NCBI GenBank assembly: GCA_025059875.1
Contig: JANXCT010000003.1
Span: 130,176-194,175 of the forward strand
Reading direction: 5' to 3'
Origin: Candidatus Kapaibacterium sp.
GTDB taxonomy: Bacteria; Bacteroidota; Ignavibacteria; Kapaibacteriales; HRBIN21
Length of the DNA: 64,000 nucleotides
In this document: piece after piece, positions 3,993-9,985 of the stretch
How the letters are laid out: the number at the start of each line of letters is the position of its first letter
Position numbering within the stretch: position 1 is the stretch's first letter
Program-made: the position numbers and the translations under genes
Notes under the pieces: model-generated
Database searches by the model: none
Told to the model about the DNA's origin: nothing
Seen by the model: the letters and a program-made list of their open reading frames with translations, nothing else

Positions 3993-4781
3993 CTATGCTG
4001 CACATTCCGGCATCGTCGGCTGCTGCACTTCTCTGTTTCCCTGAGCCGAACGGGAACCCACTGCGTACAGCCGCCCGGCGTGCCACCGTGGCACGACCGA
4101 TAGGCAGTCCAGCTGAAGGGCATACTCAACGTCTCGCTGCTTCCCCTCCAGCGTTAAGAAGCGAGCATGCCGGCTGCACCGGAGGACGGCCGAAAGGAGA
4201 TCTGGCTCGGCACGCTGGAAGGCTGTGAAGGCCACATGAGCTGCATCTGTCAAGGCTACTGAGCGGAGCTGCCGTAGCTCTGCAACGAGTGCCCCAGCCC
4301 CGATGACATCCTCATACGCCACGGAACCTTTGTGCCCAGCACAGCAGATGAAGACGGCCTTAGGCTTGAGCTGATGACAGTACTCCACGACCGCAGCCCG
4401 GTTCACCAAGCCCATCATGATCGTGCTTGCCCTTTCTCCGTCCGGCAACCGTCGCAGCAATGGAGTACCGTTAGTGGAGACGAACGCTATCCGCTTGCCG
4501 GCAACGGCTCCCCCGGTATACTCCAGTGGAGAGTTCTCCAGAGCGAACCCCGGAATCGGGCGTCCGTCTTGCTCACCAGCCAACAGTACTGTCCCTTCGG
4601 GTTCCCGCTGTGCAAGCTCCCATGCCTCCTCAGGGGTCACGCAAGGCAGAACTGCGTCAGCACCGTATGCCAAGGCCGTGCAGAGAGTCGTGCTCGTCCT
4701 CAGCACATCAACCAAGACGTAAAGCCCTTCCGGCTGGCTCTCCGGAAGCAACGAGGGAACGAGCACTACTTCAATCCGCAT
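3993..4781 (-). CDS. comB: 2-phosphosulfolactate phosphatase family protein (ComB)
   Basis: Member of the ComB family, Mg-dependent phosphatases named for the coenzyme M precursor 2-phosphosulfolactate. In non-methanogens the true substrate is often unknown, so the reaction is inferred from family only. The protein has 262 residues starting MRIEVVLVPSLLP. Family features seen are VLVDVLRTSTTLCTALAYGA, LAGEQDGRPIPGFALENSP and the segment FVSTNGTPLLRR. A longer reading frame extends upstream to 5012, but its extra 77 residues are low-complexity and cross the promoter octamer at 4808-4815, so ATG 4781 is preferred. It is divergent from the lipoprotein at 4897 and leads into ftsK 13 nt downstream. 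No other coenzyme M or sulfolactate gene is nearby. Confidence 0.85.
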   Translation of the reverse strand: MRIEVVLVPSLLPESQPEGLYVLVDVLRTSTTLCTALAYGADAVLPCVTPEEAWELAQREPEGTVLLAGEQDGRPIPGFALENSPLEYTGGAVAGKRIAFVSTNGTPLLRRLPDGERASTIMMGLVNRAAVVEYCHQLKPKAVFICCAGHKGSVAYEDVIGAGALVAELRQLRSVALTDAAHVAFTAFQRAEPDLLSAVLRCSRHARFLTLEGKQRDVEYALQLDCLSVVPRWHAGRLYAVGSRSAQGNREVQQPTMPECAA

Positions 4782-4807
4782 CGCCACCAACTGCACCTGC
4801 GGTAGGC

Positions 4808-6198: not shown

Positions 6199-7521
6199 CT
6201 ACAGCTGCTCTGCGCTGTACCGCGTACGCCACCATTGCCGCAAGCGTTCCCTGTACACGGCCTCTAGGCCCACTTCCGCGGGGGCGTAGTACACCTTCGG
6301 CTCCATGCCCTCAGGGAAGTAGCGCTGTTCCACGAAGTGGCCCGGGAAGTCGTGGGGATAGCGGTACCCCTGCCCGTACCCCGCACGGGCGAGTGCCGTA
6401 GTGGCGGGATTGCGCAGGTGGAGCGGTACTGCGGTTAGCACTCCCGAGCGCACATCCTCTATGGCTGCCTCCAAGGCCCGATAGGCAGCGTTGGACTTTG
6501 GACAACAGGCCAGGTACGTCGCCACTTGGGCCAATACTATCCGGGCCTCTGGCATCCCAATCCGCTCCACAGCCAACAGAGCTGAAACCGCCATTGGCAG
6601 CGCCTGCGGCTCCGCATTCCCTATGTCCTCGCTCGCCAAGACGACCAGCCGACGAGCGATGAAACGCGGGTCTTCCCCACTTTCCAACATCACTGCCAGC
6701 CAGAAGACAGCTGCGTCTGGATCAGAACCGCGCACGGACTTGATGAAGGCGGAGACCACATCGTAGTGTCGCTGCCCGTGAGCATCATAGCTCGGCAAAG
6801 AGCGAGCTAGAGCCTGCCGGACGTGCTCAGCCGTAATCCTGCGAGTGCCTCCGTGCAACTCTGCTAAGACCGCTGCAGCCTCCAGTACCTGCAGTAGGAC
6901 TCGCGCATCACCAGCCGCCAGCCGCAATAGTTCTGCTTCCCCCTCCACCTGGATCGGCTGCCCATAACGGCTCTCCAGCGCTGCAACTCCTCGCCGCAGC
7001 AACTCTCGAAGCTCCTCTTCCGTGAGTGGCTGGAGCTCGTAAACCCGGCATCGCGACAGCAGTGCTCCCGAGAGCACGAAGCTCGGTGGCTCAGTCGTGG
7101 TACCGATGAGGATGAGTGTGCCCTCCTCCACGGCCCGCAGCAGAGCATCCTGCTGCGGACGCGTACACCGATGGATCTCGTCAATGAACAGCACCACGCG
7201 ACGTCCTTGCCGCCGCAGAGCCGCTGCACGTCGCAACAACTCTCGCAGAGCTGTCATCCCTACCTCGGTTCCCGCCAACTGCAGCCACTCCGCTCCTAAT
7301 TCCTGCGCCACGATACGGGCAATCGTCGTCTTGCCCGTCCCCGGCGGCCCCCAGAGAATGGTGGAGGGGAAGTACCCGCGCTGCAGGAACTGGCGCAACG
7401 CCCCCCGAGGTCCAACTAGATGCTGCTGGCCCACCACCTCCTCGAACCGCTGCGGACGAAGCTGCTCCGCTAGCGGCACATGCTCTCCTACCGCTGAGTC
7501 TCCCTGGCTAAAGAGCCGCAT
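6199..7521 (-). CDS. rarA: Replication-associated recombination protein A (RarA/MgsA)
   Basis: AAA+ ATPase related to the clamp loader, acting at stalled replication forks. The 440 residues carry the family opening PLAEQLRPQRFEEVVGQQHL, Walker A GPPGTGKT at 58-65, Walker B VVLFIDEIHR, sensor-1 LIGTTTEPP and arginine finger region ALLSRCRVYEL. The C-terminal MgsA-type tetramer domain includes ARRLVVLASEDIGNA and ends with the typical RYPHDFPGHFVEQRYFP. A longer frame to 7650 only reads into the preceding gene in another frame; ATG 7521 gives the normal RarA start. It is last in the run methyltransferase, aminotransferase, RdgB fusion, rarA, beginning 65 nt after the fusion gene ends. Confidence 0.95.
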   Translation of the reverse strand: MRLFSQGDSAVGEHVPLAEQLRPQRFEEVVGQQHLVGPRGALRQFLQRGYFPSTILWGPPGTGKTTIARIVAQELGAEWLQLAGTEVGMTALRELLRRAAALRRQGRRVVLFIDEIHRCTRPQQDALLRAVEEGTLILIGTTTEPPSFVLSGALLSRCRVYELQPLTEEELRELLRRGVAALESRYGQPIQVEGEAELLRLAAGDARVLLQVLEAAAVLAELHGGTRRITAEHVRQALARSLPSYDAHGQRHYDVVSAFIKSVRGSDPDAAVFWLAVMLESGEDPRFIARRLVVLASEDIGNAEPQALPMAVSALLAVERIGMPEARIVLAQVATYLACCPKSNAAYRALEAAIEDVRSGVLTAVPLHLRNPATTALARAGYGQGYRYPHDFPGHFVEQRYFPEGMEPKVYYAPAEVGLEAVYRERLRQWWRTRYSAEQL

Positions 7522-7586: not shown

Positions 7587-8852
7587 TCACGAGAGCACGT
7601 GGGAGAAAGCACTTCGCGCCTGGGCCCATTCCTCCTGGAGCCTCTCCCACTGAGCCGAGCTGCAGAATGGCTGCAGCTCTCGGAGGAGCTCCTCACCCTG
7701 TTGTGGCGTGACTCCTAAGCGCAGGAGGGCCCGTAAATGTGACTGCACCTGCCGCCACCACCCGCCCACCGCAACTAAGGTTGCTACCGCCGTAGCCTCC
7801 CGAGCCACCAACTCCAGCCCTTGGCGCGAGAGCACACTCCCGTAGGCAACCCGAAGGACCATGTCCTCCAGAGCCGGAGCCGCCGCGCGGAGCCGCTCCC
7901 GTACCCGATCCGCCTGCTCACCGTAAACCCTCTGGAAGAGCTCCACCCCGATCGCCTCCGGCGACGACTGGAGCTGCTCTGACGGTCCTTCCCAGACCAT
8001 CCCCATCTGCTGGCACACGCGCTGAGCACACTGTAGGGCCTCGATCGCCGCCGGGAATCCTGCAAAGAGACAGAGCTGCAGAAGCCCCTCACCTACGGCG
8101 TTCAGCGGCATCCCCAACTGCAGTGCCCGCTGGAGCTCGCGCTCCAGCACCTCCTCCTGCCCAGGCCGGGCAGCCGCGGCGCAGATCCGCATCAGTAGGG
8201 GAAGCCATTCTGGAAGCGCCTGCTCGGACACGCACTCTTCACGATGCTCCGGAGCTTCGTCTGACCAGAGCCGGCGAAGCTCCGCCAGAAGCGCCTGCAT
8301 CGCCCAGTAGCGGTGGCTGAGCCGATTCTTCTCGCTCGGCTCCATCTCCCCGAAGGTCCGCTCTTCCCCTTCCGGCACGAAGATGGGATCGTAGCCGAAA
8401 CCGAAGTGTCCCCGCTCTTGGAACGCAATCCAACCCTCGACAACCCCTTCCACGCAGATGGTGCGGAGATGGTCGCGATAGCAGAGCACCGTCCGAAAGC
8501 GAGCCCGGCGCTGCTCCTTCGGAAGGCCCTGAAGGAGTTCCAGAACCGCCCGGCGATTCTCTCCATCGCTCCCCACGAAGTGGGCAGAGTGAACCCCCGG
8601 CTTACCTCCCAAAGCCTCCACCTCCAAGCCAGAATCGTCAGCAACGACAGGAACCCAGAGGCGTTCAAACAGGGCCGTAGCCTTCAGATAGGCGTTCTCC
8701 TCTAGCGTCGCACCCTCCTCCACCCGATCCCAGCCTTCTATCTGTCCCGGCGCAACGAACTCCAGCTCGCCAGGAGCCAGCTCTGAGGCAAGCTCCTGGA
8801 GCTCTCGGAGCTTGTGAGGATTCTGCGTTGCTACGACGATGCGCCGCACCAT
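7587..8852 (-). CDS. rdgB: Fusion: RdgB/HAM1 XTP/dITP pyrophosphatase plus carboxymuconolactone-decarboxylase-like domain
   Basis: One 421-residue frame with two unrelated parts. Residues 1 to about 200 are a complete RdgB/HAM1 house-cleaning nucleotidase that removes dITP and XTP: VVATQNPHKLRELQEL, GATLEENAYLKA, VVADDSGLEVEALGGKPGV, FGFGYDPIFVPEGEERTFGEM and the closing SEKNRLSHRYWAM. Residues about 215-421 resemble the double-module carboxymuconolactone decarboxylase/AhpD-like family: LGMPLNAVGEGLLQLCLFAG, then FQRVYGEQADRVRERL, VLSRQGLELVAREATAVATL and QSHLRALLRLGVTPQQ. No AhpD-type CxxC is visible, so peroxidase chemistry is unlikely. No stop or frameshift separates the halves. It overlaps the aminotransferase gene by 22 nt. 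The role of the C-terminal half is unknown. Confidence 0.87.
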   Translation of the reverse strand: MVRRIVVATQNPHKLRELQELASELAPGELEFVAPGQIEGWDRVEEGATLEENAYLKATALFERLWVPVVADDSGLEVEALGGKPGVHSAHFVGSDGENRRAVLELLQGLPKEQRRARFRTVLCYRDHLRTICVEGVVEGWIAFQERGHFGFGYDPIFVPEGEERTFGEMEPSEKNRLSHRYWAMQALLAELRRLWSDEAPEHREECVSEQALPEWLPLLMRICAAAARPGQEEVLERELQRALQLGMPLNAVGEGLLQLCLFAGFPAAIEALQCAQRVCQQMGMVWEGPSEQLQSSPEAIGVELFQRVYGEQADRVRERLRAAAPALEDMVLRVAYGSVLSRQGLELVAREATAVATLVAVGGWWRQVQSHLRALLRLGVTPQQGEELLRELQPFCSSAQWERLQEEWAQARSAFSHVLS

Positions 8853-9985
8853 GTCTCCTGCGCTGCAAGCTCCGCAGCCGCCTGCTCCAGCATCGCTTCG
8901 ACATCAGGCCGCAGTCCCATACGACCGAGCATGACGCCAATGGCAGCAACCAGCATGAGGATGTCCCCTTCGCTAATGGCCCCCATATGCCCGATGCGCA
9001 TCACTTTCCCCTCCAACGGCCCCTGTCCCCTTCCAACAACGATGCCGAAGTGTTCCCGCAACCGCTGTGGGAGCTCCTGGAGCTGCTCCGGAAGTTGGAC
9101 AACCGTCACTGCATGGGAGCCACTCTGCCCAAACAGCGGGAGTCCACACACTGCCAGTGCTGAACGCACCGAGCGGGCATAGCGTCGGTGCCGCTCCCAA
9201 TGCGGCGGCAGCCCATCGGCAAAGTAGCGTTCCAGGACGTAGCCCAACGCTCGAATCAACGACACCGCCGGAGTCCAGGCCGTCATCGCCTGCTGCCATC
9301 GCTCGTAGGCAGCATTGAGATCGAAGTACACCGTCGGAGCTCGCCAGCAGCGGACGAACTCCCATGCCCGTCGGCTAAGCCCCACGAATGCCAGCCCGGG
9401 AGGCAATGCAAAGGCTTTCTGAGAAGCCGCAACAACGACATCCAGCCCCCATTCCTCCATCGGGCACGGATGGACCCCTACTGCCGTGATGGCGTCCACG
9501 CAGATGAAGGCCTCCGATACTTCCCGAACTGCCGCTGCACACTGCTGGACGTCCATGAGGGCGCCTGTGGACGTCTCACTGTAGACCATCCACACTGCCT
9601 GCACTGGAGCGTGGGAGCGGACAGCAGCAACTAACCGCTCCGGCTCCACCACCTGCCCCCATGGTGCCGTCACTCGGACAACCTCTGCCCCGGCAGCTTC
9701 GGCAATCTGCGCACAATGCTCCCCAAAGCGACCACTCGTGGCAACAACGACGCGGCTCCCCGGTGGGCAGAGATTCCGCATCGCTGCCTCAATCCCACCC
9801 GTCCCCGAACTCGTCAGCACAACTACTGGCTCAGAGCTTCCCCACAATTCCTGCAGCCGCTGGTGGATTGGCGCCATGAGCTGCCGGAACTCCTCCGAGC
9901 GGTGCGACAGCACTTGCTCTGACAGTACCCTCAGCACGTCATCGGGAACGGCGACCGGACCGGGTGTGAAGAGCCGCATCGGCAT
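8831..9985 (-). CDS. Class V PLP-dependent aminotransferase (alanine-glyoxylate/serine-pyruvate type)
   Basis: The 384-residue enzyme begins MPMRLFTPGPVAVPDDVL, the usual TPGP opening of the serine-pyruvate/alanine-glyoxylate group (sometimes mislabelled soluble hydrogenase subunit). Also seen are VVVLTSSGTGGIEAAMRN, the cofactor Asp region FICVDAITAVGVHP, and the PLP lysine in DVVVAASQKAFALPPGL. The C-terminus KVMRIGHMGAISEGDILML is typical of the family. The preferred amino donor cannot be read from sequence; serine, alanine or phosphoserine are possible. The start lies inside the end of the upstream methyltransferase gene (about 47 nt overlap), and the 3' end overlaps the RdgB fusion by 22 nt, so translation is likely coupled. 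ATG 9979, two codons later, is an alternative start. Confidence 0.9.
   Translation of the reverse strand: MPMRLFTPGPVAVPDDVLRVLSEQVLSHRSEEFRQLMAPIHQRLQELWGSSEPVVVLTSSGTGGIEAAMRNLCPPGSRVVVATSGRFGEHCAQIAEAAGAEVVRVTAPWGQVVEPERLVAAVRSHAPVQAVWMVYSETSTGALMDVQQCAAAVREVSEAFICVDAITAVGVHPCPMEEWGLDVVVAASQKAFALPPGLAFVGLSRRAWEFVRCWRAPTVYFDLNAAYERWQQAMTAWTPAVSLIRALGYVLERYFADGLPPHWERHRRYARSVRSALAVCGLPLFGQSGSHAVTVVQLPEQLQELPQRLREHFGIVVGRGQGPLEGKVMRIGHMGAISEGDILMLVAAIGVMLGRMGLRPDVEAMLEQAAAELAAQETWCGASS

Follow-up and report, generated by a model that had tools for sequence, protein, structure and literature searches.

What does a single reading frame encode when it joins an RdgB/HAM1-type nucleotide pyrophosphatase to a carboxymuconolactone decarboxylase (CMD)-like protein, and do its two halves serve one task? 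The question is raised by the following gene in the 64,000-nt stretch of Candidatus Kapaibacterium sp. DNA that we analysed (hereafter, the window):

7587..8852, minus strand: rdgB::cmd fusion gene, 421 codons in one open frame, an architecture shared by 25 of the 123 genomes from this order of Bacteroidota

This frame runs from an ATG at 8852 to a TGA stop at 7589-7587 with no internal stop, which confirms the uninterrupted 421 codons described in an initial annotation of this DNA. The genomes that keep the one-frame arrangement of RdgB and CMD fall into the window's own family (f1, 5 of 6), family f2 (18 of 23) and genus g21 of family f9 (2 of 7). Both halves evolve under purifying selection (dN/dS 0.10-0.23 where not saturated), and the linker between them is relaxed, with dN well above that of both domains in most of the pairs compared. 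The existence of relatives with unfused adjacent pairs would fit an assembly or sequencing error that deleted a stop codon or caused a frameshift between two genes, but the same frame stands open in 25 genomes and changes in linker length preserve it. We therefore regard such an error as next to negligible in probability, given how widely the frame is kept within the order and the purifying selection on both halves; the missing-stop artefact against which the initial annotation had cautioned is contradicted by the same frame recurring across these genomes.

On the minus strand of the window, a spoU methylase gene, a class-V aminotransferase gene, rdgB::cmd and rarA follow one another, the first three with overlapping ends. 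The two genes that flank the fusion are:

8831..9979, minus strand: class-V aminotransferase, upstream neighbour (Pfam PF00266, E 2.9e-19)
6199..7521, minus strand: RarA/MgsA AAA+ ATPase, downstream neighbour (Pfam MgsA_C, E 1.7e-67)

The last 22 nt of the aminotransferase gene overlap the beginning of the fusion gene, and an aminotransferase also lies upstream in the fused genomes of f1 and f2. This neighbour helps to interpret the genomes in which the complete gene was not found. Three of them (G003, G058 and G268) yielded no match to the fusion and no real match to the upstream aminotransferase either, and G228, likewise without a fusion match, has its aminotransferase locus truncated by the edge of a contig. 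For G265 and G274, only pieces of the fusion gene were recovered. Because the locus is thus absent, truncated or fragmented, the missing matches are probably gaps. One weak hit, L104 in G003, was discarded as spurious.

The N-terminal half comprises the following features:

8283..8840, minus strand: RdgB/HAM1 domain, residues 5-190 (Pfam PF01725, TIGR00042 and Foldseek)
8634..8639, minus strand: Asp72-Asp73 of the ADDSGL motif, invariant in 15 aligned fusions
8310..8318, minus strand: Ser179-His180-Arg181, the SHR motif, invariant in the same alignment

Residues 5-190 match the Ham1p_like family with a Pfam E-value of 2.9e-54 and score 167.1 bits against the NCBIfam RdgB/HAM1 model TIGR00042, above its cut-off of 145.35. 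The fold was matched by Foldseek to 1vp2, 1k7k and 2q16, so that the complete XTP/dITP pyrophosphatase-type domain first proposed for this half stands. TxNxxK, ADDSGL and SHR motifs are all present, with key positions invariant or nearly so among the 15 fusions; we take Asp72-Asp73 to belong to the catalytic motif of RdgB/ITPA and the SHR motif to mediate purine recognition. The protein hence shares with the XTP/dITP diphosphatases RdgB, HAM1 and ITPA the whole domain, its catalytic and SHR motifs and its fold, but differs from them in carrying an extra C-terminal CMD part of about 215 residues. As judged from these sequence features, the N-terminal half is predicted to be an active XTP/(d)ITP pyrophosphatase that would clear deaminated purine nucleotides. 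KomBC structures are also among the Foldseek matches of this half, which could hint at a defence protein akin to the HAM1-like KomB of the Kongming system. However, canonical RdgB structures match more strongly, the immediate neighbours are housekeeping-type genes, the gene is present through whole families and PADLOC returned no match, with the reservation that PADLOC-DB 2023 may hold no KomB model; a KomB-like role is therefore extremely unlikely.

Profile searches and structure prediction show a linker in front of the C-terminal half and, within that half, two unequal modules:

8232..8258, minus strand: interdomain linker, residues 199-207, variable and fast-evolving, pLDDT below 50
8007..8204, minus strand: CMD module 1, residues 217-282, shortened (profile and hhalign)
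7593..7961, minus strand: CMD module 2, residues 298-420, a complete CMD fold

An AF2 model of the full-length protein, built from 15 fusion proteins (mean pLDDT 88, pTM 0.54), consists of two confident domains separated by this low-confidence linker, consistently with the boundary near residue 205 previously placed between the halves; Foldseek matched the second of these domains to CMD structures. Residues from about 208 to 421 match CMD family PF02627 with 39.5 bits (gathering cut-off 23; E 5.5e-10), as do 21 of 21 homologues at E <= 0.01. A separate model of residues 208-421 (pLDDT 95.6, pTM 0.90) has the all-helical CMD fold: its best PDB match is 4g9q, over all 214 columns with a TM-score of 0.79, and Foldseek aligned about 117 columns with 2af7 (TM(target) 0.83-0.86). 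Examined separately, both halves thus pass profile searches and fold comparison, and the CMD resemblance initially perceived in the second half is borne out.

Module 2 aligns to residues 4-93 of 2af7, including the RE and QLxSHxRGAL motifs, with an i-Evalue of 1e-20. Module 1 retains a conserved E..LLQ..LFAGFPAA motif without the catalytic Glu and His, and its profile positions 42-75 align to residues 87-120 of 2af7, FAGFPAA included. As the N-terminal part of the profile matches the C-terminal part of 2af7, a circular permutation of the CMD domain was considered, and rejected: the two modules align with each other (hhalign probability 74.5, E 2.7e-5) and the half matches the tandem 4g9q over its full length. 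From this alignment of module 1 with module 2 it follows that the CMD half is a tandem whose module 1 is missing its initial helices and the catalytic residues, a better reading than a permuted domain. The annotated 4-carboxymuconolactone decarboxylase 4g9q likewise has two tandem CMD modules, but it shares only 20% identity, is not fused to RdgB and differs from the window protein, in which the first module is shortened and devoid of catalytic residues. The gamma-CMD MTH234 (2af7) shares the QLxSHxRGAL and RE motifs and the fold of module 2, but is a single, unfused module in which the FAGFP-type motif comes after the catalytic part, whereas in the window protein it precedes it, in module 1.

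Which chemistry this half might perform depends on three residues of module 2:

7797..7799, minus strand: Glu352 (of R-E), by spacing the equivalent of AhpD Glu118, invariant in 21 of 21 homologues
7749..7751, minus strand: Gln368, where AhpD has Cys133; invariant in 21 of 21
7737..7739, minus strand: His372, by spacing the equivalent of AhpD His137, invariant in 21 of 21

These correspond to alignment positions E145, Q161 and H165, and their invariance extends to fused and separate forms alike. In AhpD, Glu118 and His137 are among the proton relay residues, and Cys130 and Cys133 are the redox cysteines (PMC3141380). By our own comparison, the relay Glu and His are shared with AhpD of M. tuberculosis and with PA0269 at the same spacing, to which the protein of the window itself adds one residue. 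Common superfamily membership and this conserved pair might suggest an AhpD-type alkylhydroperoxidase linking nucleotide clean-up to oxidative stress. However, unlike AhpD and PA0269, the CMD half has no cysteine pair: counted back from His372, the places of Cys130 and Cys133 hold Trp365 and Gln368, and AhpD structures match the fold weakly (TM about 0.3). The lack of an AhpD CxxC, which had already led to the remark that this half is no obvious peroxidase, was therefore verified at both positions, and with the cysteines missing we reject an AhpD activity as very unlikely.

An equally doubtful candidate is PcaC, the 4-carboxymuconolactone decarboxylase of aromatic degradation, towards which the top family-level matches point, these being PcaC models and gamma-CMD structures. 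Indeed, PcaC-type NCBIfam models match the second half with E-values of 1e-12 to 2e-15, but far under their curated cut-offs, TIGR02425 scoring 48-51 bits against an equivalog cut-off of 155.7. Furthermore, the window's genome has neither a protocatechuate dioxygenase nor a PcaB above cut-off. Among the eight genomes tested, intradiol dioxygenase (PF00775) was not found in seven, that of the window included, and none of the eight has a PcaB above cut-off. Scores below the equivalog cut-off and a genome showing no protocatechuate route thus lead us to reject this assignment, which has very little probability left. A second CMD-domain gene was observed elsewhere in the window's genome (G000:C4:41624-41869, plus strand).

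It might also be argued that the CMD half serves chiefly as a scaffold for RdgB, for oligomerisation or ligand sensing, and does not itself catalyse a reaction. In favour of this, trimers or hexamers are formed by proteins of the CMD fold (PMC3141380), and module 1 has lost its catalytic residues. Against it, the Glu, Gln and His of module 2 never vary, whether the protein is fused or separate, and separate CMD proteins occur without an adjoining RdgB, which makes a pure scaffold unlikely. We favour instead a CMD-fold acid-base enzyme, predicted from the Glu352/His372 pair and from Gln368 in place of a cysteine. The new regulatory or substrate-handling module that was initially raised as a second option is possible as well.

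We then compared fused and separate forms of the two genes. Besides the fused genomes, 19 unfused ones were examined, and in these rdgB and cmd lie side by side in the same direction: 18 have a CMD start codon within the terminal part of rdgB, and the remaining one has an 18-nt spacer. Adjacent pairs are common in the order, and the overlap usually amounts to between a few and about 50 bases. In family f4, the order is a spoU-like gene, rdgB, cmd and a D-Ala-D-Ala-carboxypeptidase-like gene, the last named by resemblance. IQ-TREE trees built separately for each half place the f1 fusions as sister to these adjacent f4 pairs (99/94 in the CMD tree; weakly, 81/38, in the RdgB tree) and the g21 fusions beside adjacent pairs of their own genus (99/89 and 100/99 in the CMD and RdgB trees, respectively), and the f2 fusions fall elsewhere in both. 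The fused state requires 4-5 changes on the trees and forms a single clade in 0% of bootstrap trees. Since the fused genes thus fall into three distinct clades, about three independent fusion events in the order are probable on this phylogenetic reading, one old fusion followed by several fissions being a less simple alternative. The gene is a true fusion of neighbouring rdgB and double-module CMD genes, and the lineage-specific joining of neighbours suspected from the outset is upheld by the sister lineages that keep adjacent, overlapping and unfused pairs. Surveys beyond the order, covering about 200 genomes from the remainder of the class and about 360 phylum-survey genomes, some of which are the same class genomes, yielded no fusion, nor was a CMD gene found next to rdgB outside the order in the class genomes compared by place. 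Collectively, rdgB::cmd is a lineage-restricted, probably recurrent fusion that brings two known families together in a new domain architecture, without amounting to a new kind of system.

In families f5 and f7, in one genome of f9 and in the other families of the class that were compared, cmd is located apart from rdgB. The genomes of family f3 that were searched retain RdgB, with no match to this CMD subfamily. The link between rdgB and cmd is therefore not obligatory. A gene resembling a D-Ala-D-Ala-carboxypeptidase comes next after the fusion in one f2 genome and lies after the unlinked cmd of f5 and f7 genomes; as a side observation, genes named by this resemblance adjoin the CMD gene or fusion at L006, L010, L011, L082 and L085. 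In class families f23 and f28, a TPR-repeat gene immediately precedes the separate CMD gene (L086, L091 and L118-L122, one of them profile-tested).

Regarding the route to fusion, in unfused relatives the overlapping rdgB and cmd would probably be co-translated, and small indels inside the overlap could have brought both genes into one frame. The CMD half of the window gene may itself still be translated independently, from an in-frame internal GTG that is present without a Shine-Dalgarno-like sequence. As a general reading this was dismissed, because several of the f2 fusions lack any internal start from which a full CMD could be made.

Since CMD-fold proteins are trimers or hexamers and RdgB proteins are dimers, each particle of the fusion protein would, by analogy, bring together several RdgB units and several CMD active sites at a fixed 1:1 ratio. 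Most likely, rdgB::cmd thus encodes a bifunctional, oligomeric house-cleaning protein, and the repetition of the fusion suggests that the RdgB and CMD activities serve one cellular task. To this reading as a whole, namely overlapping genes fused into a 1:1 oligomer of a predicted pyrophosphatase and a CMD acid-base enzyme with a suggested common task, we assign a probability of roughly 0.6. Its possible, if less probable, counterpart is that coupled overlapping genes fused by chance and were tolerated, each half working independently. An overlap of a few bases between the separate genes of most unfused genomes, a linker unconserved in length and sequence, and a CMD unlinked in several families all speak for such a neutral event. 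So does genome G021, where the class-V aminotransferase neighbour is itself fused in frame to RdgB (L052:1489-3225, minus strand; a 578-aa protein with Pfam matches to Aminotran_5 and Ham1). That fusion suggests that closely packed, overlapping genes at the rdgB locus are easily joined, and it weakens any functional inference from the RdgB-CMD fusion. On the other hand, about three origins and retention across whole families argue against mere tolerance, even if retention by itself is no demonstration of coupled function.

The repeated fusion of an overlapping pair is nonetheless a clue to what a mostly uncharacterised CMD subfamily does, and could indicate an additional step in the clearing of non-canonical purine nucleotides. 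In its boldest form, the CMD half would act on a nucleotide-derived or nucleotide-linked substrate, such as a product or damaged precursor of purine house-cleaning, making the fusion a two-step sanitation enzyme. We consider this a long shot; if true, it would provide the first cellular role for this CMD subfamily. In the open-access literature, we found no paper linking Ham1 with CMD proteins, and our literature search found none on double-module CMD proteins. Elsewhere in the window, positions 3993-4802 of the minus strand carry a gene of the 2-phosphosulpholactate phosphatase family (PF04029, E 1.1e-59), which is best known from coenzyme M synthesis.
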